Source of the DNA: an uncultured Bacteroidota bacterium | GTDB lineage: Bacteria; Bacteroidota; Bacteroidia; JABEUT01 | Length of the DNA: 33,871 nt | Assembly: GCA_903916255.1 (NCBI GenBank) | Contig: CAIWVW010000126.1 | Span: 1-33,871, forward strand | Direction of reading: 5' to 3' | Part shown: positions 295 to 24,995 of the stretch, piece after piece | How the letters are laid out: each line of letters starts with the position of its first letter | Numbering within the stretch: position 1 is the first letter of the stretch | Notes under the pieces: generated by a model | What the model was told of the DNA's origin: nothing | What the model saw: only the letters and a program-made list of their open reading frames with translations | Database searches by the model: none | Position numbers and translations under genes: made by a program

Positions 295-828
295 TTATAA
301 TTCCGTAGGGTCACTTTTTAAATTAAAAAGGCGCTCTAAATACGGATTAAGCCAGCTCGGGTAGTTTCTCCAAAACTCGCTAACTATTGAATTACTTTTA
401 GCTACATTATGAAACCTGCATAATAGAATTCTATTTTCAATTATTGATGGCCCCCCGAGGGAATAGGGCCAATAATGATCAGCTTGACATTTTTCCCTAA
501 TTTGACGATAGTTATTGAATTCACAGAATCCGCTTTTTTGTATGGATGAATACTGACAATTATCAGAATTATTTATTCCCTTACTAAAATCAGATGAATT
601 ATAATCAATAAAATTTCCAAGAAATTGCCCTTCGGAATTATATAAAAAGACAGGATAAATAAGAGGTAATATTAATGGAAGATGTACAACATTACTTTTC
701 TTAATCTCTGTATGTAATTCCTTATATTTTAAAATCCAGTATTTGTTTTTCTCAGGAAGGTTTAAACACTCTGTTTCAGTTAAGAATTTCAATAAACATT
801 TAAAATATGTATTCGATTGTTCAATCAT
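295..828 (-). CDS. HNH endonuclease family protein
   Basis: Predicted 177-residue nuclease. The visible motif is an HNH (beta-beta-alpha-metal) core: D117-H118 in QADHYWPYSLGG, N132 in ENRILLC, and H140-N141 followed by K144 in FHNVAKSN. Such cores bind a metal ion and cut DNA. Cysteines at 91, 102, 114 and 137 could form a structural zinc site, though the spacing is not the common paired CxxC. Residues 1-85 match nothing I recognise and may recognise DNA or a partner. The start codon overlaps the stop of the upstream DGQHR gene as ATGA, so the two are almost certainly cotranscribed and translationally coupled. AT content is higher than in the flanking core genes. The HNH call is fairly sure; the biological role (restriction, defence, homing) is inference. 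Confidence 0.75.
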   Translation of the reverse strand: MIEQSNTYFKCLLKFLTETECLNLPEKNKYWILKYKELHTEIKKSNVVHLPLILPLIYPVFLYNSEGQFLGNFIDYNSSDFSKGINNSDNCQYSSIQKSGFCEFNNYRQIREKCQADHYWPYSLGGPSIIENRILLCRFHNVAKSNSIVSEFWRNYPSWLNPYLERLFNLKSDPTEL

Positions 829-2393
829 TTATCAAGTCTAATTTGAGTTACTCTTTTAGTATCACCACTGTAAGACATGTAAATAATATCGATTTCATAA
901 TTATTAGGAAACTTGCCTACATTTTCACCCTTTTGTGTTAATGCATGTTTCAATTCCACTGTTGGTTTATGGTTAAAATCGCTAACTGATAGTAAATATA
1001 AATTACTAGATGTTGACTGAATACAAATTAATTCACGTGTTATTCCCCCAGTAGAAAGATCAAACGGGATTATCCCACTTCCATAGGGAATTGTTTTACT
1101 GATTTTTGTTTTATTATCTTTTCGTCCAGTACTAGTAACTTGATAAGCATCTATAACAAATTGCCCTCCAATTCCCTGAATAAAATCAGTAAATACCTGT
1201 CCATTTAAGTTATTTGGTTCACAAAAGAACTCTATAAAGGCATCTGTAGCTACTTGCTTAGAAGGTTTACTAAAACTACTGGATAATGCAGCAGTTGATT
1301 TAACAAAGGGAAGTAAAAAATTGCATTTATTTACTGCCCTCCTGGGTTCTAGAAAAAATGACACCCAACCATCAAAAGGAGTTTGTTTATTTATTGTAGA
1401 TAAATATGTCAAGAGGCCTATTAAATATGATTCAGCTATCATTTTATGAGTATTACTATTTGAAAACAATTTCGAGTCAGTATTTCTATGTGCATCATTA
1501 TTTTCAAAAGCTATTGTTGCCTTAACTATCTCTTCAGCAAGCTCATTAGGAGACAACTTCCCTCCTTTCCCATAATAGTAAGAAGCAACGATTTTTTCCC
1601 ATTCAATGGAATTAAAATCGAATGCGTTCCATTTCGGTGTTGGTTGAATGTAAGGGTTAAACTGTATCTTATTACTAAATGGATTGGTCATATTAGAAAG
1701 GATAGGTTCTTTGCATAATATAATAGTTGTCTCCATTGATGATTTGTGAGACTTTTGTTTATACTGTTCAAGATTGAAAGCATACTTCATCCACTCTCCA
1801 TGAACTGGCTCCATTGGCTTAGCCCCTGTAGTTACATGAGTAAATATCTCAGCAAGAAATGGAGGAGAGTACTTGCTTGTGTCATGCAATAAAACAAAAG
1901 GAACTAATTCATCTTTCTGAGTTGAAACCGAAAGCCCTTTAATGCGGTGTTGTCCGTCCAAAATCCAAATGGGCTTCCCACCATCGGCTTCGTAAGATAC
2001 CTCAACCTCGTAACAATTGGGAACAACAACCATTTGTCCATCAGAAGTCTTTATTGTTTTTTGGGTCAAATTAATTTCCACCTTTGGCGGCATCAAGTTT
2101 TGTATTGCAGTACCCAAAAGAACAGGATTAGCCATCAGATTATCCTTTAAAGAATCTCCGTAAATTTCTTTTATTGCCATAACCTTATTTTGATCTTCAG
2201 GTCGCTGCCATTCGTCAATAGGTGGTTTAATCACATCATCTGCAATTTTATGATGTGGTTTATCAACAGGAAAACTTGGAACTTCGGCAATTTTAATTAA
2301 TAAGTTTGCTGGAAGGAATCCGCAATACATAGGGTATTGATTACCATTAATTTTTGCAACCCCTTTTAAAACATCAAATTTGAATGAACTCAT
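825..2393 (-). CDS. DGQHR-motif protein, DndB-like
   Basis: 522 residues. WILDGQHRIKGL puts the signature DGQHR at residues 146-150. The preceding segment (RPEDQNKVMAIKEIYG, then ANPVLLG) resembles the DndB/ParB-like fold, as does the following FLAEIFTHVTTGAKP. DndB is the regulatory member of phosphorothioate DNA-modification clusters, and DGQHR proteins also occur alone. The C-terminal ~95 residues look beta-rich and are unfamiliar. No dndA, dndC, dndD or dndE homologue is visible in the window. It is the first gene of a two-gene unit with the HNH nuclease. A 13-base palindrome lies 15-27 bases upstream of the ATG. The gene is AT-rich: spot counts give 19 GC of 60 at 1261-1320 and 15 of 60 at 1441-1500, against 30 of 60 inside lon. 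That suggests recent acquisition. Family membership is fairly sure; function is not. Confidence 0.75.
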   Translation of the reverse strand: MSSFKFDVLKGVAKINGNQYPMYCGFLPANLLIKIAEVPSFPVDKPHHKIADDVIKPPIDEWQRPEDQNKVMAIKEIYGDSLKDNLMANPVLLGTAIQNLMPPKVEINLTQKTIKTSDGQMVVVPNCYEVEVSYEADGGKPIWILDGQHRIKGLSVSTQKDELVPFVLLHDTSKYSPPFLAEIFTHVTTGAKPMEPVHGEWMKYAFNLEQYKQKSHKSSMETTIILCKEPILSNMTNPFSNKIQFNPYIQPTPKWNAFDFNSIEWEKIVASYYYGKGGKLSPNELAEEIVKATIAFENNDAHRNTDSKLFSNSNTHKMIAESYLIGLLTYLSTINKQTPFDGWVSFFLEPRRAVNKCNFLLPFVKSTAALSSSFSKPSKQVATDAFIEFFCEPNNLNGQVFTDFIQGIGGQFVIDAYQVTSTGRKDNKTKISKTIPYGSGIIPFDLSTGGITRELICIQSTSSNLYLLSVSDFNHKPTVELKHALTQKGENVGKFPNNYEIDIIYMSYSGDTKRVTQIRLDK

Positions 2394-2407
2394 ACTTTAT
2401 AAATTTT

Positions 2408-2420
2408 TGATTACTAATCA
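2408..2420. promoter_or_regulatory. Perfect 13-base palindrome, candidate operator
   Basis: TGATTACTAATCA is a perfect 6+1+6 palindrome between the start codon of the DGQHR gene (2393) and a partial -7 box (7 of 8 to TAnnTTTG, reverse strand, 2439-2446). The inverted half TAGTAATCAA recurs at 2479-2488. This is a plausible binding site for a repressor of the module. DndB proteins are known to act as transcriptional regulators, so autoregulation is a reasonable but untested idea. Confidence 0.4.
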
Positions 2421-2558
2421 TAAGTGATGTAATTATAACAAATATTTTATTATTAATTGAACGAATGTTTTAATGCTTTAGTAATCAAATACTTTTCCGA
2501 GCCGCTTAGTTGCACTTTGTCGTATACTATCCATGCAATTGCCTGTCCGGCTCATCTC

Positions 2559-14775: not shown

Positions 14776-17700
14776 TTATTTATTCCTTATAAGTTGGATA
14801 AACCCATCTAGTTTATGGGTTTTGCCTGTATAATCGCAGTAATCTAAAATATAGTAATATACTCCATCTGATGCCGGTTCATTTGTTTGTCGGATTATTC
14901 CGGGCCACCCTTCAGCCACACTGTTTAACTGGTAAACCAATACTCCCCAACGATTATAAATATTGCAATGCAGGCAAGTTGCTCCGGCAATGGTAAAATA
15001 AAACACATCATTTTGTCCGTCGCCATTGGGTGTAAATACATTCGGTATTATTACCATAGGGCTCACAAAAACATCGCCCGTAGCGGTATCCGGGCATCCG
15101 TATGAATTATAGCCGATTAGCATTATCTGGTAAGTGCCTGAATTGGCATAATCATGTGTTGGTGATGTTCCTGTGGTCGAACTGCCATCTCCAAAGGTCC
15201 AGTAATAACTGGTGTTTCCGGTGCCGGTATTCGTAAAGGTTACAACCTGACCGGGTTGTATGGTGTCGGGTGAAACATAAAATGAAGCATTTCCGGATGG
15301 TACCACAACTACATGCATAGTGTCTGTAGAAATATAATTGCATGCATCGGTAACGGTTACGCTATAAGTGGTGGTAGCCGTTGGGTAAACGGTAATAGGT
15401 CCGGCAGTAGCATTCGTTATTCCATTATTCCAAACGTATGTATAAGCAGGTTTTCCGCCTGCCACATTTACCTTTAAAATTACAGGTTTGCCGGCGCATA
15501 TAGTATCGCTTAACGGCATATTGGATGATAGGTTTTTATAAACCGATACCGCATAAGGAATAGAATCATTGCATACACCCAGGCTGCCGATTACCCAATA
15601 GGTGGTATTGGTAGTTGGTGATACTGTGATGGAAGAAGACGTGTTGCTATTTGACCATTTATAAGTTGCCGCGCCCATTGCCGTGAGCGTTACACTTTGC
15701 CCTTTGCAAACGGAATCGGTACCTGTTACGGTCATTGTAAATGTTTTGTTTATTGCAACAATTCCTGAGGCAGTATCGATACATCCGTTGGCATCGGTAA
15801 TAGTAACGGTATATTTTCCCGCACTTAAAGAGGAGACGGAGAAGTTTGTACTTCCGCCGGGGCTCCATGAATAGCTATAGGGTGAATTGCCGCCACCGAC
15901 TGAAACGGTTATGCCTCCATTGTTATTTATGCAGGTAGCAGAATCGGAAGAGATGGTTGTTGATATAGCCAGAGGTTGCGTAATAACAACCGAAGTTGTT
16001 AATGTGCATCCCAAAGAATCCGTTACAATAACCGAATAACTTCCTGCACTAAGGTTTGAAACTGTTGGAGTAGATTTTCCGGTGGGGTTCCAAAGGTATG
16101 TGTAGGAAGGTGTGCCACCGGATATGGTTACGGAAGCATTCGCATTAGCGCCACCATTGCAACTTTCATTTGTATTTGAAATATTTGAATATGCCAGCGC
16201 CGTTGGCTGCGTTAGTGTAGCTGATGCTGTGGCAGCACATCCGTTTTTATCGGTAACCGAAACGGTATAAGTGCCTGCTGAAAGCCCGCTGATAGCTACA
16301 GTTGATGCACCATTCGACCAGGTATAAGCATACGATGGCGAGCCACCTGTTACACCAATTGAAATGTTTCCGCTATTGTTTCCATTGCAAAGAATATTCG
16401 AGAATGAAACAACAGAATCCCTGACAGCGGTAGGTTGTGTGATGGTAACCGATGCACTAACCGATGAGCCGCATTTATCATTAACTAAAACGCTGTATGT
16501 GCCTACAGAAAGCCCTGTAACGGTTGATGTGGTTGCGCCATTCGACCAGTTATAAATATATGCAGGAATTCCTCCGCTGATAGTGATAGTAATAGAAGCG
16601 TTCGTATCGTCAAAACAAAGCGGGTTTATATGCGTAAGCGATGAAATACTTATCTGGGTTGGTGCCGTAATTGTAATAGAACTGGATGCTGTGCAGCCAT
16701 AGCCATCTGTTACGGCTAATGAATAAGTGCCGGGTTGGGTTATGGTATCCGTAGGATTAATAATATTGCCGGGAGTCCAGACATACTGCGCCATGCCTGG
16801 CGCCCCGCTGAGAACAACCGTATCTTTTCCATTCGGGCAAATAGAAGTGGAAGGGGCCGCAGTAATAGTTGCATTCGGGTTTGCCAACAGGATGGTTGCG
16901 CTGGCAATGGTTGTAATGCCACATGAAACCACTTCGCAGGAATACGTTCCGCTGACATTTACATATTGCACCGAATCAGTTCCGTTTAAGGGAGGAAGCC
17001 AGTTATAGGTGGCGCCATTAGAAGCTATTGCAGTTAGTTTGGCTGAATCGCCGGGACAAATAGTGTAACTTGGCGTTACCACCAGGTATGGTGTGGCGTA
17101 AAGGCCAACTTCCACTGTATTGGAAAGTTGAACACATCCCAATGAATCGGTGCGCACGCAACTATAGTATCCGGGAATTTTTACATAAATGTGTGGAGAG
17201 TTTATGGCAATTGGGCCATAAGGGCCGTTCCAGGTAAAGCTGCCATCGGCGCTGGAACAATTTAATTCCACAGAATCATTGGGGCAAACAATTCCATTTG
17301 TAGGATTCATATCGATTTTTGGTTGAGGAACCGTGTGAACTCCAAAACTAGCGGTTGCAAACGCAGTACAACCGTAGCTATTGGTATCCCTTGAAGTGAC
17401 TTGATAGGGGGGAGGGGTTGCACCTACATAAATACTATCTGTCGTACTCCCTTGAGACCATGAATAGTTAGTGCCTCCATGTGCCACTAACCAGGTTTTA
17501 TCACCCGGGCAAACATAATGATTTCCGGTTATTGTTATTGTTAAGTTTGGAAGGGGGTATAAGCGCACATATACAGAATCACTTAAAATATTTATTGCCG
17601 TATCGCAGGTGTTTCTTCGGATAATTGTAGCAGTAATATTATACCAGCCAGAATCGGAAGGGCTGAATGGATCCCAATCTCTCGATAAACTGGCACATGA

Positions 17701-20007
17701 AGATTTTGATGGATAGGTGATTGTTGCTGATGGTGTGGCGGCCCATTCAATATGGGTATCCGGTTCGGGAGGGATACATCCTCCAAGTGATGCTCCCGGA
17801 TTTGTAATAGAGTCGTAAGGCAACATAATAAACCCATCACCGATACAGAAAAAGGCTGAATCGTGGTGGCAGGTTGAACAAACAAGTTTCGGTATGATAC
17901 GTGGCAAAGAATCACTAATTGTAACGTGAACGGTATTTGCATTTACACAACCATACGAGTTTGTCACTAAAAAAGTATAATCTCCGCTTGAGGTGGCAGT
18001 AGTACTTATTGAATCGTATGGGCCATTTGGTCCGGGCACATACCACGTATACGTGTTAGTGCCATAATTGCCTCCTGTAAGAATACAATCCCTTCCGCAA
18101 AGTATAATATTATAGGCATTGGTATCGTCGGTTTCTACAATAACATTATCCGAAATCCATGGTGTTTTTGGAACAGGTTCAGCAATCACAAGGATGCTAT
18201 CCCTGCTCGTAAAGCAGCCATCAACTGATGTGGCGGTAACATAATACCAGCCGGGAGAATTAATAAGAATTTGATTCCCTGTGGCATGGGTTGACCATAA
18301 GAAATTAAAGTCGGGGCCTATATCATTCAGATTATTACATGTTTGGGTATTGGCAAATAAAGCAATACCCGGTGGAAAATTATATTCACAAAAGCGAACG
18401 GTATCCTGGCATCCGCCATGAATTGAAGAGTTATTATCGTTTATGCAGACGCCTACTTGAGGCCTGTCGCAGAAATTTTCGTAGCGGCTATAATAATCAT
18501 ACGTCTGCCTGGTTAAATCAATGGGTTTTGCAATAAAAATATCCAGATTACCGAAGGTGGTCATGGTTCCAAAATGCCCATAATAATTATCAGAACAATA
18601 TGAGTGGTTACATCCCTCAAATCGGCAATAAGAGAAATCGTAGGATGAATTGCAGTCGACAAAATTAGTGTCCATAGGTACAATCATATCATCATCAAAA
18701 CTGCCTGCGGTATATAGGTGAGCTGTTGTATCAATTGCAATTCCGTTACCGTAATTGTTTCCATGCCCTCCTATCTGGCGGCTCCATATCCAACTTCCGT
18801 CAGTGCCTGCGTATCCGGCGGTAAATACGTCCCAATATCCAACAGTGTTAAATGTACCCTGCCCATAGCGGTCCGCATAACCATTCAACACACATTCAAA
18901 ATTCCCGATGATGTATGGATTTCCGGCAGGGTCGAGAGAAATATTATTGGCAGTTAGCGGATTCGATGAACCATCTGCCACATCCCATAACAAGTTTGCA
19001 TTCTGGTCATATTTTGCAATAAATATCCGGTTGAAATAAGTATTGGTAAGGGTTACTATGGGGTTCACAAAAAAGTCGAGGTTCCCCTGGAAATTCCCGG
19101 TGATATACACGTTCGAACTGTTGTCAACTGCTATTGCATTGGCGATATTGTATATGCCTCCTCCGGCCGTTGTTATCCATTGTTCATTGCCGTTGTTATC
19201 ATATTTCACAATAAATATGGCATTGTACAAGGGGCTGAAATGAACATTGTCGAATGTAATGGTATCTGTAAATTGCCCGGTGATATATACATTGCCTGTC
19301 GGGTCACAAGCTACGCCAAGGCCTCTATCGGTATGCGGACCTGTTCCTGACTTGGCCCACAAAAAAGTACCATCGGAAGAATCCAGTTTGGCCGTAAATA
19401 CATTAATGTTATTGTTAGAGCTCGTTAACGTATAAGTACCAAAAGTGGCAGTTCCGGTAAATTGCCCGGTAATTATAACATTCCCGGTATTGTCGAGCGT
19501 AATTGCATTCCCAATATCCGATTCCGGACCTCCGGCACTCACTACCCATTTTAAATTTCCATTGCGGTCATACTTTGCAACAAAAACATCCTGCAATCCG
19601 GCGCTGGTAATATTCTGGCTCCCGAAAGTGGCAGTGCTATAGTAATACCCGGTAACATAACTGTTTCCATTTTTATCTGTTTTTATGGCGAGCCCCCTAT
19701 CTGCACCTCCATCACCGGCTTTCACCGCCCATTTATAAATTCCTAAGCTGTTTGTTTTAGTAATAAATATGTCACTTACGGCAAAGGTGCTTAACGCAAT
19801 GGCTGAGCCAAATGAAGCATTTCCTGAAAAATATCCTGTAGTATATGTATTGTTACTGTCATCTATCGAAATGCTGTAAGCTTCATCCGGAGTCGCACTT
19901 CCGGCCTGCTCCAACCAGTATTTATTTTGTGCGGATAAATACCCGCTGCCAATGAGCAACAGTGCAATAAAGAAAGTTTTTACAAACTTGGGGTAAAGAT
20001 TTGCCAT
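14776..20007 (-). CDS. Giant secreted propeller/SprB-repeat protein with gliding-motility-associated (type B T9SS) C-terminal domain, copy A
   Basis: 1743 residues from the ATG at 20007, where the signal peptide MANLYPKFVKTFFIALLL begins. An in-frame extension to 20106 overlaps the neighbouring gene's end and is rejected. Order: signal peptide (about 1-27); SBBP-type repeats (about 28-490) with the pattern DIFIxKxxxxGxxxW...DxxGNxYxTGxFxGTATFG, seven by my count; Ig-like segments (about 500-1115) with many xxCPGDSxxL words; four SprB-type repeats (about 1120-1418) with LSAGTYTVSVTDKNGC; a PKD domain with YYWTFGDGSS (about 1569-1642); and IPNVFTPNGDGQNDVFYF to the end, the CHU_C/type B sorting domain. 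It should be exported by T9SS and displayed or released as an adhesin-like protein. The true ligand is unknown. It follows copy B by 35 bases, probably as one operon. A Cys-rich loop near 448-474 is more elaborate than in copy B. Confidence 0.85.
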   Translation of the reverse strand: MANLYPKFVKTFFIALLLIGSGYLSAQNKYWLEQAGSATPDEAYSISIDDSNNTYTTGYFSGNASFGSAIALSTFAVSDIFITKTNSLGIYKWAVKAGDGGADRGLAIKTDKNGNSYVTGYYYSTATFGSQNITSAGLQDVFVAKYDRNGNLKWVVSAGGPESDIGNAITLDNTGNVIITGQFTGTATFGTYTLTSSNNNINVFTAKLDSSDGTFLWAKSGTGPHTDRGLGVACDPTGNVYITGQFTDTITFDNVHFSPLYNAIFIVKYDNNGNEQWITTAGGGIYNIANAIAVDNSSNVYITGNFQGNLDFFVNPIVTLTNTYFNRIFIAKYDQNANLLWDVADGSSNPLTANNISLDPAGNPYIIGNFECVLNGYADRYGQGTFNTVGYWDVFTAGYAGTDGSWIWSRQIGGHGNNYGNGIAIDTTAHLYTAGSFDDDMIVPMDTNFVDCNSSYDFSYCRFEGCNHSYCSDNYYGHFGTMTTFGNLDIFIAKPIDLTRQTYDYYSRYENFCDRPQVGVCINDNNSSIHGGCQDTVRFCEYNFPPGIALFANTQTCNNLNDIGPDFNFLWSTHATGNQILINSPGWYYVTATSVDGCFTSRDSILVIAEPVPKTPWISDNVIVETDDTNAYNIILCGRDCILTGGNYGTNTYTWYVPGPNGPYDSISTTATSSGDYTFLVTNSYGCVNANTVHVTISDSLPRIIPKLVCSTCHHDSAFFCIGDGFIMLPYDSITNPGASLGGCIPPEPDTHIEWAATPSATITYPSKSSCASLSRDWDPFSPSDSGWYNITATIIRRNTCDTAINILSDSVYVRLYPLPNLTITITGNHYVCPGDKTWLVAHGGTNYSWSQGSTTDSIYVGATPPPYQVTSRDTNSYGCTAFATASFGVHTVPQPKIDMNPTNGIVCPNDSVELNCSSADGSFTWNGPYGPIAINSPHIYVKIPGYYSCVRTDSLGCVQLSNTVEVGLYATPYLVVTPSYTICPGDSAKLTAIASNGATYNWLPPLNGTDSVQYVNVSGTYSCEVVSCGITTIASATILLANPNATITAAPSTSICPNGKDTVVLSGAPGMAQYVWTPGNIINPTDTITQPGTYSLAVTDGYGCTASSSITITAPTQISISSLTHINPLCFDDTNASITITISGGIPAYIYNWSNGATTSTVTGLSVGTYSVLVNDKCGSSVSASVTITQPTAVRDSVVSFSNILCNGNNSGNISIGVTGGSPSYAYTWSNGASTVAISGLSAGTYTVSVTDKNGCAATASATLTQPTALAYSNISNTNESCNGGANANASVTISGGTPSYTYLWNPTGKSTPTVSNLSAGSYSVIVTDSLGCTLTTSVVITQPLAISTTISSDSATCINNNGGITVSVGGGNSPYSYSWSPGGSTNFSVSSLSAGKYTVTITDANGCIDTASGIVAINKTFTMTVTGTDSVCKGQSVTLTAMGAATYKWSNSNTSSSITVSPTTNTTYWVIGSLGVCNDSIPYAVSVYKNLSSNMPLSDTICAGKPVILKVNVAGGKPAYTYVWNNGITNATAGPITVYPTATTTYSVTVTDACNYISTDTMHVVVVPSGNASFYVSPDTIQPGQVVTFTNTGTGNTSYYWTFGDGSSTTGTSPTHDYANSGTYQIMLIGYNSYGCPDTATGDVFVSPMVIIPNVFTPNGDGQNDVFYFTIAGATCLHCNIYNRWGVLVYQLNSVAEGWPGIIRQTNEPASDGVYYYILDYCDYTGKTHKLDGFIQLIRNK
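14870..14955. repeat. 86-base direct repeat (copy A sorting domain)
   Basis: Identical base for base to 20137-20222. It encodes the RWGVLVYQLNSVAEGWPG to NEPASDG part of the type B sorting domain. Flanking codons differ between the two copies. Confidence 0.95.
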
Positions 20008-20042
20008 GCAAAATAATATTACATAGCGAATATAGTAATTAT

Positions 20043-23000
20043 TTACTTGCTGCGTATCAGCGTTATAAATCCGTCCAGCCTGTGCGATACATTCATATAA
20101 TCGCAATAATTCAGCACATAGTAATAGGTGCCGTCAGATGCCGGTTCATTTGTTTGTCGGATTATTCCGGGCCACCCTTCAGCCACACTGTTTAACTGGT
20201 AAACCAATACTCCCCAACGATTGAATATATCGCAATGGAAACAGGTTGTTCCTGTAATGGTGAAATAGAAAATATCATTTTGTCCGTCGCCATTGGGCGT
20301 AAATACATTCGGAATGTATATTTCAGGAGTAACGTGAACATCTTTCACCGCTGTATCAGGACAGCCATATACATTATCGCCGATTAACGTAACGATATAC
20401 ACTCCCGGATTGGTATATACGTGTGTAGGATTTGAATCGGAGGAAGTACCGCCGTCTCCAAAGGTCCAATACCAGGAAGTAGTGTTGGTGCCTTTATAGG
20501 TAAAGGTTACGGTTTGCCCACCGGGTATAGTGTCGGGTGCAGGTATAAAATTTACATTTCCTTTCGGGTAAACATCAACCCTTGTAGAATCGATTACCAA
20601 ATCATTGCATCCATCCGTAATGTCTACAATATAAGTTGTAGAATCGGTAGGATAAACCGTAATTGGGCCGGCGCTGTTAGTCGTAATACCGTTGTTCCAC
20701 GCATACGTGTATTTCGGTTTTCCGCCTGCAACATTCACTTTCAGTTTTACGGGAGTACCGGGACAGATATTAGTGAGCGGGGGCATGTTTGCGGCCAGGG
20801 GTTTGTATAATGTTACAGTATGCAATACGGAATCTTTACATACACCTGTAACACCCGTTAGCCAATAAGATTGGGTTGAACCCGGACTAACTATTATACT
20901 GGATGAAGTGCTTCCATTCGACCAGAGATAAGTTGTAGCTCCGCTGGCGATAAGCGTATCGGGTTGTCCTTTGCAAATGGAATCGAGCCCTTTTACGTTC
21001 ACATTAAATGTTGAATCGAGGCTTACTGTAATGGAAGTTGTATCGACACAACCATGCGCATCGGTAATAACAACAGTATAATTACCTGCACTCAATCCTG
21101 ATATGGATGCATTGGTGTTTCCTCCCGGATTCCAAGTGTAGGTATAAGGAGAAGTGCCACCAGTTACAGTGGTACTGATGCTTCCGTCATTATTCGCACA
21201 TGTGGCGGAGATTGCTGTCAGTGTTGGTGCAGTTGCATTCGGTTGTGTTATACTTACGGTAGTTGTTTCACTGCATCCTACCGAATCGGTAACAATAATT
21301 GAATAGGTTCCTGCACTTAAACCTGAAACGGTGGGACTGGTTTGAAGGCCCGGATTCCATAAGTATGTATAAGACGGAACCCCGCCGGTAACACCAACAG
21401 TAGCATCGCCATTATTGTTTCCAAAGCAATTTACATTGGCAGAAGATAAAATGGACGGAGTTAATAATGTGGCAGGTTGAGTAAGCGTAACGGAAGCTGT
21501 TTTCATACATCCATTGGCATCTGTTACGCTGACAGTATAAGAACCTGCGGATAGATTGGATGCCGTTGAACCCGTACTCACCGGAGGCGACCATGTATAC
21601 GTATAGGCTGATTCACCACCGCTCACAGTAGCAGTAATACTTCCGGTGGCGCCGCCTTTGCAACTTATATTTTTAGCATTTATAACAGTATCTTTTAACG
21701 GAGGATAAATGGTAACATCTGATGTGGCAGTGCATCCATAAGCGTCTGTAGCTATCAATGTGTAGGTAGCTGCATTTTTAACGGAGATAACAAGATTGGT
21801 ATTATTTACCGGGGTCCACAGGTAGCTTGCCATGCCTGGCGCAGCAGTTAATGTAACGGAGTCTCCTGCAGTACAAATGGTTTTTGAGGGAGCCACTGTT
21901 ATAGTTGAAATTGGCGTTGAAGAAGTTATTGTTACAGAACAAATCGTAGTTATTCCGCAGGAAATAACCTCCACGGAATAAGTGCCTGCCGCTTTTATTA
22001 TCTGGTTGGCCGAATCTCCGCTCAAAGGAGGCAGCCATGTTATAGTTGCATTGCTCGATGCTTCTACCGAAACTTCTATGGAATCGCCCGGGCACAAATT
22101 GTGGCTGGTGGGCAAGGCGAGATATGGCGTGGCATAAAGTTCTGTTATCACCGTATTTGATAATTTAGAAAGCGGGCAGGGCAAACTATCGCTTACATAG
22201 CAGTAATAACTGCCGGGTGCTTTTACATAAGCAGTAGCAGAAGTTGAACCCAGAGGCCCTGAAGGGCCATACCATTGATAGTTTTGGTAAGGGCCTCCTG
22301 AACATATCAGCTCAACCGAATCACCGGGGCAAACTACACCGCTGGAAGGATTCATAGTTACCGTTGGCGTGGCAATAACGGCATCCGTAACTCCTATGGA
22401 GGCAGCTGCAGCGCCTGTGCATCCATATGCATTGGTTAAAGTGGCCGTAGCAAAATATGTACCGGGCCCCACATAAAGGCTGTCTTTTGTACTGCCGGTA
22501 GACCAGGTAAAGTTGGTGTTGCAATTAGCTACAAGCCATTCCGAATCGCCGGGGCAAACAGTAGTGCTGCCTGAAATTGTTAATGTAACAACAGGGGTAG
22601 GGTATAGCCTGACAAAAATAGAATCCTTTAAGATATTTTTACTGGTTCCGCAGGCATTGGAACGGACAATGGTATCTGTAATTAGGTACCATCCCGAATC
22701 GGATGGGGTAAAAGTGTTCTGGTCGGGGCAGCCTGTAGTTACATGGTAACTGATGGAGTTCGGGCTGGCTTCCCACTTGTTGGTAGTGCCGGAAGACGGT
22801 GGAATACATAGGGAAGGATTTGCCGATGGATTTGAAATAGTATCATAAGGCAGCAGCGTAAAACCTCCACCCTTGCATATAAAAGCGGAGTCGTGCTGGC
22901 AGGTAAGGCATTTTATTTTCGGGCCTATATTTGGCAAAGCACTGTCAATAGCAACCCACACACAGGTTTGATTTACGCACCCGAAGGAATCGACTACGTT

Positions 23001-24995
23001 GAAACAATAGTATCCGCTGTCGGAACGCAGCCCGACAGTTATGGTGACGGAATCTTTTTTTACGAATGTATTTGGGGTTGTCCAATACCAGGTGGAATCG
23101 CCGCTATAATTACAGCCGGTAAGTTTAACCGGACCGTTGCAAACGCGTATAGGTTTAGGGTTTGTGGAGTTGGTGTTTATTACCACATTGTCGGATAGGC
23201 AGGGCTGCGGAGGTGCCGGATGGATAATAACATAAATGCTGTCTTTGCTGGTGATGCAGCCGTCGGCAGAAGTTGCCGTTACCGAATACCAGCCTGTGTG
23301 TGAAACAGAAATCGAATTCGACCTGGAACTGGTCGACCAGAGGTAGGTAAAATTCGGGCCCACAACATTACACGTTTTTGTAATAGCCGAAATAACTCCA
23401 TTTAAACAAAATGAAACGGTATCTTCACAAATGGTTGATTCTCCAACGCAAATACCTACCTGCGGCCTGTTACAACCGGAACCGGAGCGTATATAAAAAT
23501 CGTAGGGCTGCCTGTTCAGGTTAATGGGTTTGGCAATAAAAATATCCAAGTTTCCGGCGGTATTGAAAGTTGCAAAATAGCCATAGTTGGCATCGGAACA
23601 ATAAGTGGTATTGCAATAAGTTGCGTTGATGGCGTTATAGCCGAGGTAACTTGGCGGCGGGTCGGCGGTAATAATCATATCCTGGTCGAAACTACCCGTA
23701 GTATAAAGGTCTCCACTTGTGGATGAAGCAATGCCATACCCGTAATTGTTCATGTGTCCGCCTATCTGCCTGCTCCATTGCCATGCCCCTCCGGAAGAGC
23801 TGTATTCTGCTGTGAAGATGTCCCAATAACCTACCGAATTGAAAGTACCCTGTCCGTAATGGTCGGCATAGCTGTTAAGAATACAATCGAAATTCCCTAT
23901 GATATAAGCATTGCCCGAACCATCTACCGCGATACTGTTAGAACTTACCGGGTTTGAAGAAGCATCCGCTACGTCCCATAAAAGATTGGCATTCTGGTCA
24001 TATTTTGCCACAAATATCCTATTGGTATAAGGGCCAGTAAGCGGAACAATGGTGTTGGCATAAAAGGTAAGTGTGCCTGTAAAGTTTCCTGTTATAAGTA
24101 CATTCGAACTATTATCTACCGCAATCGCATTCGCTATATTCATGGTTCCTCCACCGGCTGTAGTTATCCATTGCTCGTTGCCTGCGCTGTTATATTTCAC
24201 TACAAAAATGGCATTGTAAAAAGGGCTGTAATGCACATTGTCGAACGTAATGGTATCTGAAAACTGGCCTGTTATATAAACATTCCCCGCAGGGTCGCAG
24301 GCAACGGCCAAACCTCTGTCGGTATGAGGCCCAACGCCCGATTTTGCCCAGATAAAATTTCCGTTTGCCGAATCGAGTTTGGCGGTAAATACATTGATGT
24401 TGTTATTTGTACTGGTTAAATTAAATGACCCGAAGGTGGCTGTTCCTGTAAACTCGCCCGTAATAATTACGTTTCCGGTATTGTCGATTGCAATGCCGTT
24501 TCCTATATCCGATTCGGTTCCGCCCGCGCTTACCACCCATTTCAGGTTGCCGTTGGCATCATATTTTGCAACAAAAACATCCTGCAATCCGGCGCTGGTT
24601 ATATGCTGAGCGCCAAATGTGGCAGTGCCATAATAAAATCCGGTAACGTAACTGTTTCCTTTGGAATCTGTTTTTATGGCAAGCCCCCTGTCTGAGCCGC
24701 CATCGCCAGCTTTCACGGCCCATTGATAAACGCCGTTGCTGTTGGTTTTGGTAATAAAAATATCGGAAACACCGGTAGATGTTAAAACAGTAGAACCAAA
24801 TGTCGCGGTGCCTGTAAAGTATCCGGTGGAGTAGGTATTGTTGTTGCCATCCAATGAAATGCTGTAACCTTCATCGGCTGTTACGCTTCCGGCCTTCTGC
24901 ATCCAATAGCCCTGTGCAGGTATATCCACAGACACAGCTGTAAATGCGAGTATGATAAAGAGTAATTTAAGCGTGGTAATGTTTCTTATTTTCAA
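20043..24995 (-). CDS. Giant secreted propeller/SprB-repeat protein with gliding-motility-associated (type B T9SS) C-terminal domain, copy B
   Basis: 1650 residues with the same architecture as copy A. It has a signal peptide (MKIRNITTLKLLFIILAF, cleavage near PAQG), SBBP-type propeller repeats (about 28-485) and Ig-like segments with CPGDSxxL words. Three SprB-type repeats follow (about 1101-1331), against four in copy A, then a PKD domain with WYWTFGDGGTSS (about 1478-1553). The C-terminal sorting domain starts at YIPNVFTPNGDGQND (about 1560-1650). The initiator is TTG at 24995; an in-frame TAA lies just upstream with no ATG between, and the signal peptide begins well there. The propeller region is the most conserved part against copy A. 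Expected to be a T9SS substrate at the surface; binding target unknown. Likely the first gene of a two-gene operon. Confidence 0.85.
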   Translation of the reverse strand: MKIRNITTLKLLFIILAFTAVSVDIPAQGYWMQKAGSVTADEGYSISLDGNNNTYSTGYFTGTATFGSTVLTSTGVSDIFITKTNSNGVYQWAVKAGDGGSDRGLAIKTDSKGNSYVTGFYYGTATFGAQHITSAGLQDVFVAKYDANGNLKWVVSAGGTESDIGNGIAIDNTGNVIITGEFTGTATFGSFNLTSTNNNINVFTAKLDSANGNFIWAKSGVGPHTDRGLAVACDPAGNVYITGQFSDTITFDNVHYSPFYNAIFVVKYNSAGNEQWITTAGGGTMNIANAIAVDNSSNVLITGNFTGTLTFYANTIVPLTGPYTNRIFVAKYDQNANLLWDVADASSNPVSSNSIAVDGSGNAYIIGNFDCILNSYADHYGQGTFNSVGYWDIFTAEYSSSGGAWQWSRQIGGHMNNYGYGIASSTSGDLYTTGSFDQDMIITADPPPSYLGYNAINATYCNTTYCSDANYGYFATFNTAGNLDIFIAKPINLNRQPYDFYIRSGSGCNRPQVGICVGESTICEDTVSFCLNGVISAITKTCNVVGPNFTYLWSTSSRSNSISVSHTGWYSVTATSADGCITSKDSIYVIIHPAPPQPCLSDNVVINTNSTNPKPIRVCNGPVKLTGCNYSGDSTWYWTTPNTFVKKDSVTITVGLRSDSGYYCFNVVDSFGCVNQTCVWVAIDSALPNIGPKIKCLTCQHDSAFICKGGGFTLLPYDTISNPSANPSLCIPPSSGTTNKWEASPNSISYHVTTGCPDQNTFTPSDSGWYLITDTIVRSNACGTSKNILKDSIFVRLYPTPVVTLTISGSTTVCPGDSEWLVANCNTNFTWSTGSTKDSLYVGPGTYFATATLTNAYGCTGAAAASIGVTDAVIATPTVTMNPSSGVVCPGDSVELICSGGPYQNYQWYGPSGPLGSTSATAYVKAPGSYYCYVSDSLPCPLSKLSNTVITELYATPYLALPTSHNLCPGDSIEVSVEASSNATITWLPPLSGDSANQIIKAAGTYSVEVISCGITTICSVTITSSTPISTITVAPSKTICTAGDSVTLTAAPGMASYLWTPVNNTNLVISVKNAATYTLIATDAYGCTATSDVTIYPPLKDTVINAKNISCKGGATGSITATVSGGESAYTYTWSPPVSTGSTASNLSAGSYTVSVTDANGCMKTASVTLTQPATLLTPSILSSANVNCFGNNNGDATVGVTGGVPSYTYLWNPGLQTSPTVSGLSAGTYSIIVTDSVGCSETTTVSITQPNATAPTLTAISATCANNDGSISTTVTGGTSPYTYTWNPGGNTNASISGLSAGNYTVVITDAHGCVDTTSITVSLDSTFNVNVKGLDSICKGQPDTLIASGATTYLWSNGSTSSSIIVSPGSTQSYWLTGVTGVCKDSVLHTVTLYKPLAANMPPLTNICPGTPVKLKVNVAGGKPKYTYAWNNGITTNSAGPITVYPTDSTTYIVDITDGCNDLVIDSTRVDVYPKGNVNFIPAPDTIPGGQTVTFTYKGTNTTSWYWTFGDGGTSSDSNPTHVYTNPGVYIVTLIGDNVYGCPDTAVKDVHVTPEIYIPNVFTPNGDGQNDIFYFTITGTTCFHCDIFNRWGVLVYQLNSVAEGWPGIIRQTNEPASDGTYYYVLNYCDYMNVSHRLDGFITLIRSK
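20137..20222. repeat. 86-base direct repeat (copy B sorting domain)
   Basis: Perfect match to 14870-14955, including all synonymous positions, inside paralogues that otherwise differ at roughly one base in five where I compared them. Confidence 0.95.

Follow-up and report, generated by a model that had tools for sequence, protein, structure and literature searches.

We consider it moderately probable that the two genes at one end of the window (the whole 33,871-nucleotide stretch of DNA analyzed here), one for a DGQHR-motif protein and the other for an HNH endonuclease-like protein, form an effector module working with DNA phosphorothioate (PT) modification, a split counterpart of SspE and DndI that was acquired horizontally in this genome. 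Rather than being self-contained, the pair probably supplies a sulfur-tag anti-virus system with a new cutting partner, and we found no description of a DGQHR-HNH gene pair in the literature searched. This reading is based on the pairing of the genes, on the motifs that they conserve, on the PT neighborhood of both readable relatives, and on an insertion with respect to the nearest congener.

The window corresponds to the complete contig C126 of a MAG (3.74 Mb, 149 contigs, 97% complete) whose gene content places it in Bacteroidota, within or close to the class Bacteroidia. An earlier note on this DNA had described two genes overlapping by ATGA in an AT-rich patch beside housekeeping genes, and the description holds: both open reading frames lie on the minus strand as collected in Table 1, the DGQHR frame being intact and ordered before the HNH gene, and the GC of the pair is 30–34% (GC3 25%) versus 40–47% (GC3 38–50%) in the neighboring housekeeping and secretion genes. 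No coding sequence follows the pair in the contig, of which 294 nt are left after the HNH stop. A promoter scan was uninformative (13 found versus 11.3 expected). Elsewhere in the window (14776–24995), two tandem large paralogous proteins of 1776 and 1650 aa have near-identical C-terminal ends; they belong to the gliding/T9SS-cargo type and lie close to PorV/PorU-like genes.

Table 1. Positions of the pair, its motifs and flanks in the window, and of the GIY-YIG-type genes in other loci (locus handle before the position).
Feature	Position	Strand	Remarks
DGQHR-motif protein, 522 aa	825..2393	-	residues ~1-250, DGQHR/DndB-like (ParB/Srx superfamily) region; remainder subfamily-specific
HNH endonuclease-like protein, 177 aa	295..828	-	N-terminal ~95 residues of no recognised type; HNH motif in C-terminal half
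ATGA stop/start overlap coupling the DGQHR and HNH genes	825..828	-	sequence
DGQHR pentapeptide, residues 146-150, predicted NTP-hydrolysis motif	1944..1958	-	sequence; invariant in the 3 pair members; also in other DGQHR proteins
QR dipeptide, residues 63-64, second conserved DGQHR-family motif	2202..2207	-	invariant in alignments
HNH motif, D117-H118 ... P-x-S-L-G-G-P ... N132 ... L-C ... H140-N141	406..480	-	invariant in 3/3 HNH proteins
AT-rich spacer, dapB stop to DGQHR start	2394..2558	-	probable insertion junction side; similarity to congener G396 ends at window 2569 (dapB end)
Dispersed repeat at contig end	1..196	.	99% copy at C98:181-376; other copies 72-84%
GIY-YIG-type gene overlapping/abutting DGQHR	L080:7446-7787
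GIY-YIG-type gene overlapping/abutting DGQHR	L081:9586-10110
GIY-YIG-type gene overlapping/abutting DGQHR	L082:9534-10028
GIY-YIG-type gene overlapping/abutting DGQHR	L083:8026-8556

The DGQHR domain (TIGR03187) is defined by a QR pair, the DGQHR pentapeptide, an F/FxxxN motif, a ParB/Srx-type domain, and a score above the cut-off of the model. In comparison with other DGQHR proteins, QR, DGQHR and F184 are conserved in the window protein, whose residues 4–247 match 15 of these proteins profile to profile (hhalign) with a probability of 97.9% and an E of 6e-13, while the match to TIGR03187 itself has an E of 5e-10 and 39.6 bits, below the cut-off (58.85). Judged by its sequence, the protein is probably a divergent branch of the DGQHR family. 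The window HNH protein gives weak Pfam matches to HNH (E 0.004) and HNH_4, below gathering scores, and matches PADLOC REase_II at E 1.3e-5; the H...N...H/N catalytic set of HNH (His-Me finger) nucleases is present, with D117-H118, N132 and H140-N141 invariant in the three proteins known. Profile searches against PDB sequences gave no meaningful match, and AlphaFold models from two-sequence alignments yielded no usable structure (pLDDT 35 and 30; mean 30 for the DGQHR protein).

The pair recurs in two further loci, L041, a 15-kb contig binned as Heimdallarchaeota, which came from a motif-alignment scan of genome contigs (E 1e-51), and L092 (genome G953, of the same class as the window), which was recovered when 395 genomes of the class were searched by profile (E 7e-53); all three loci are MAG or draft contigs, and the Heimdallarchaeota assignment depends on binning. 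In both relatives the HNH gene immediately follows the DGQHR gene, in the same strand and order as in the window, the ATGA overlap of the latter corresponding to a 1 nt gap in L092 and, according to the start codon, to an overlap or a gap of ~10 nt in L041. The DGQHR proteins share about 30–33% identity pairwise, the window protein having ~31–33% to the L041 and L092 homologues by BLASTP, and the HNH proteins 34–42% over the aligned part; DGQHR, QR and "WQRP" are invariant across the three former, and D117, H118, P121, S123-P127, N132, L136, C137, H140, N141 and K144 across the three latter, that of L041 matching Pfam HNH_5 at E 1e-4, below the gathering score. Thus, on sequence grounds, the pair proposed in the earlier note is real and not a product of chance, since all three loci keep both genes in the same order, adjacent or overlapping; in addition, both relatives lie in defense islands, and the D-H...N...H-N active site is invariant in them.

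The family is nevertheless rare, with three loci in distant hosts. No relative was found by single-sequence search in 395 genomes of the phylum, in 10 congeners, in 227 genomes of the archaeal phylum (L041 itself aside), or by single-protein searches of phages, plasmids and viral contigs. Profile scans of viral contigs found only a phage locus unrelated to the pair (L094:3888–6764), in which a DNA methyltransferase, a 342-aa DGQHR protein and a 310-aa protein of no known type stand consecutively. A genome-scan match in Dysgonomonas (L042) is not a pair member, because a radical-SAM-like N-terminus precedes its DGQHR stretch in a single fusion, and an HNH gene was not seen beside it; the open reading frame concerned (L042:9017–10609), in which this N-terminus is followed by the VVLDGQHRIKAF motif region, is an unusual fusion in its own right. 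A weak match in genome G769 (L091/L093) was spurious, being a large glycosidase-like open reading frame.

Both readable relatives (2/2) adjoin complete PT modification systems, and these belong to two different lineages. In L041, dndE, dndD, dndC and dndB are followed on the minus strand by PbeD/C/B/A-like genes, and the pair diverges from them on the plus strand, starting 107 bp away from pbeA; a type II DNA methyltransferase and an MvaI/BcnI-like gene come after it. DndB, C, D and E all score above the NCBIfam cut-offs, PbeA and PbeC were assigned by PADLOC, and the calls for PbeB and PbeD depend solely on their location and length (62 and 153 aa, for which the published sizes are 66 and 152 aa; PMC6459918). 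The DndB of this locus is canonical (405 bits, TIGR03233) and separate from the DGQHR protein of the pair, which is therefore not a stand-in for DndB. In L092, an SspA-like cysteine desulfurase, a 71-aa open reading frame, an SF2 helicase, a GHKL ATPase, a PLD-like protein and the DGQHR and HNH genes form a plus-strand run with short gaps throughout except one of 0.3 kb, and SspD, SspC and SspB, with strong PADLOC matches, lie convergently just downstream of the pair. Other candidate PT effectors are thus also found in both relatives, PbeABCD in the one and the helicase, GHKL ATPase and PLD genes in the other. The part of the run headed by the SspA-like gene (L092:3230–9340, with the SF2 helicase, GHKL ATPase and PLD-like genes) may represent another PT restriction module, different from both SspE and SspFGH.

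These surroundings speak against the "stand-alone" system that had been suggested for the pair, since its relatives abut DndBCDE-PbeABCD and SspABCD, and the window breaks off 294 nt past the HNH stop. The proximity has to be read against the phylum, in which DndC or SspD lies within ~8 kb in 6 of 28 other Bacteroidota DGQHR loci (L066, L073, L081, L082, L083 and L088); with two pair relatives out of two, the PT association exceeds this family baseline at about 0.05 by chance, which is suggestive, short of conclusive. DGQHR proteins are often near PT genes generally, so that proximity need not mean dependence. An HNH motif gene adjoining DGQHR was found by pattern search in none of the 28 loci.

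The nearest congener (G396) carries trhO-recJ-cysD-cysN 360 bp after dapB. The window DNA ceases to resemble that of the congener at the end of dapB, and in the window genome trhO-recJ-cysD follow an amino-acid permease at one end of contig C141. This is most simply read as an insertion separating dapB from trhO, which would hold the pair together with the contig gap and perhaps further DNA, and a horizontal acquisition of the pair downstream of dapB forms part of the explanation preferred here. The repeat at the contig end is the likely cause of the assembly break; lepB on contig C98 was ruled out as the other side of the break, as it adjoins guanylate kinase there. An AT-rich stretch (window about 50–86) recurs at >10 places in the genome, on both strands. 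The earlier note stated that no dnd modification gene is present. In the binned contigs of the MAG, PF01507, which does detect DndC of L041 and SspD of L092, finds only CysD, so that they hold no PT sulfurtransferase (DndC or SspD); however, downstream partners could lie beyond the contig end, and on that side the window cannot decide. The window pair may still adjoin a PT cassette that was left unassembled, or it may be an effector that has been orphaned.

Among the systems already described, the pair most calls for comparison with SspE and DndI, PT-gated DUF262-DUF1524 effectors that likewise join a ParB-superfamily NTPase-type domain to an HNH nuclease and occur in PT loci (PMC13251355, PMC11662687). 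Their domain carries DGQQR where the pair protein carries DGQHR, their two activities are fused whereas the pair has two genes, and the pair differs also in an HNH of the HNH/HNH_4/HNH_5 kind and in a C-terminal part of ~270 residues that is the DGQHR protein's own; Pfam DUF262 (PF03235) and DUF1524 (PF07510) gave no match at E<=1 to the window proteins, and none to the L041 and L092 homologues. The GmrSD/BrxU type IV enzymes also combine a ParB-like DGQQR domain with an HNH domain, sometimes in two genes, and the GmrS/DUF262 and DGQHR/DndB domains are related (PMC4619093), but the same two models match neither pair protein. With DndB the pair protein shares the DGQHR/QR core and the ParB-like region; it is not DndB, being longer (522 versus ~350 aa), coexisting with a true DndB in L041, and giving, like its L041 and L092 homologues, no match at E<=1 to the DndB equivalog TIGR03233. 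The likeness to DpdB of the Dpd 7-deazaguanine system is a weak N-terminal match covering only the DGQHR region of the model (NF041060; 20.1 bits for the window, 31.9 for L041 and 27.3 for L092, with a cut-off of 300), and no Dpd modification gene was seen in L041 or L092. An identity with DndB, DpdB, SspE or GmrSD was accordingly rejected on model scores. The PbeABCD and SspFGH restriction modules resemble the pair in adjoining PT modification genes, and in L041 the pair adjoins PbeABCD itself; the pair gave no PADLOC match to the Pbe, Ssp and Dnd restriction families.

In SspE, PT binding drives NTP hydrolysis, licensing its HNH nickase (PMC13251355), and in DndI, PT-driven NTP hydrolysis removes DndI from self DNA (PMC11662687). 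Because the pair would place the functions of SspE/DndI on two coupled genes, and PT genes adjoin its relatives, the most likely mechanism, by analogy, would be a PT-informed NTPase switch over a separate HNH nuclease. The DGQHR protein is predicted to be the NTPase-type PT sensor or licensing subunit and the HNH protein a DNA nickase or nuclease under its control, and such an arrangement would suppose NTPase and nuclease activities, a sensing of PT or dependence on it, a physical interaction of the two proteins, and an antiviral function. PT may activate the pair, as in SspE, or restrain it, as in DndI; the former sign is mildly favored, as a speculation, because a nuclease restrained by PT would be toxic in an orphan pair. 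Effector partners of PT systems would still be missing, given that ~84% of sspBCD loci in one survey have neither SspE nor SspFGH (PMC8092258), and Rakesh et al., who list HNH and URI nucleases in the vicinity of Dnd genes in general, note that many nucleases there have no assigned mode of action (PMC10853773).

An alternative explanation, which we hold to be unlikely, is that the pair is a self-contained two-gene defense or type IV-like restriction module, similar to GmrSD, recognizing foreign or modified DNA without PT, so that the adjacency to PT genes would be ordinary clustering in defense islands. GmrSD targets glucosylated-hmC DNA and a PT requirement has not been described for it (PMC4619093), the window MAG is without DndC and SspD, and the methyltransferase and MvaI/BcnI-like genes next door in L041 do indicate a defense island; however, both readable relatives directly adjoin two different PT systems, and the window contig stops just past the HNH gene. 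It is less probable again, and in our view quite improbable, that the DGQHR protein regulates the PT operon as a repressor in the manner of DndB, the HNH protein being a backup suicide nuclease freed on failure of the main system. The canonical DndB already present in L041, the lack of a TIGR03233 match in the pair protein, and the ATGA coupling and co-retention in 3/3 loci, which suggest a joint effector, weigh more here than the reported role of DndB as a regulator of PT modification (PMC4507180), the position of the pair at the edge of the L041 cluster, and the suicide-effector role that Rakesh et al. propose for standalone nucleases at the boundaries of Dnd loci (PMC10853773). As for a toxin-antitoxin-like or selfish nuclease cassette unrelated to PT, with an HNH toxin held by its DGQHR partner, an overlapping two-gene operon of low GC, with a patchy distribution and inserted with respect to the congener, is in its favor, but gene order and sizes are unlike those of typical toxin-antitoxin pairs, the NTPase motif DGQHR is strictly conserved, and the context is one of PT systems, all of which makes it very improbable.

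The preferred reading, that of a PT-linked effector module, gives the pair an interest as a simple candidate partner for PT loci, seen beside both Dnd-Pbe and Ssp systems, and a separable sensor and nuclease would let sensing and cutting be assayed apart, which the fused SspE/DndI do not easily allow. A comparable organization is found in 4 of the 28 other loci (L080–L083), where a small GIY-YIG-type gene abuts DGQHR, with Pfam support in L080 (E 7e-10), sub-threshold Pfam matches in L081 and L082, and resemblance to L081 only in L083; three of the four (L081–L083) are Ssp or Dnd loci. From this organization, the DGQHR plus GIY-YIG-like genes would be a sister design of the HNH pair with another nuclease, and DGQHR proteins look like a common sensor subunit with interchangeable effectors. 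It may be proposed, as a tentative extension that we rather doubt, that two-gene modules of DGQHR and a small nuclease (HNH, or GIY-YIG-like in L081–L083) are an unnamed class of PT-dependent restriction partners, in which DGQHR would be the common PT-sensing switch and the nuclease interchangeable; if so, such modules would account for part of the large share of Ssp/Dnd loci that are without SspE, DndI, DndFGH, SspFGH and Pbe.

Two further arrangements were observed among the 28 loci. One locus (L081:3122–16409) is an Ssp-Pbe hybrid, with SspBCD and SspA, a PbeA/PbeC-like cluster, DGQHR and the GIY-YIG-like gene. In five others (L067–L070 and L076), a small membrane-protein-like gene abuts DGQHR, its product being hydrophobic, of 165–210 aa, with a membrane character read from the sequence, and the overlap being -4 nt in 4/5; these are possible DGQHR plus membrane-effector pairs.
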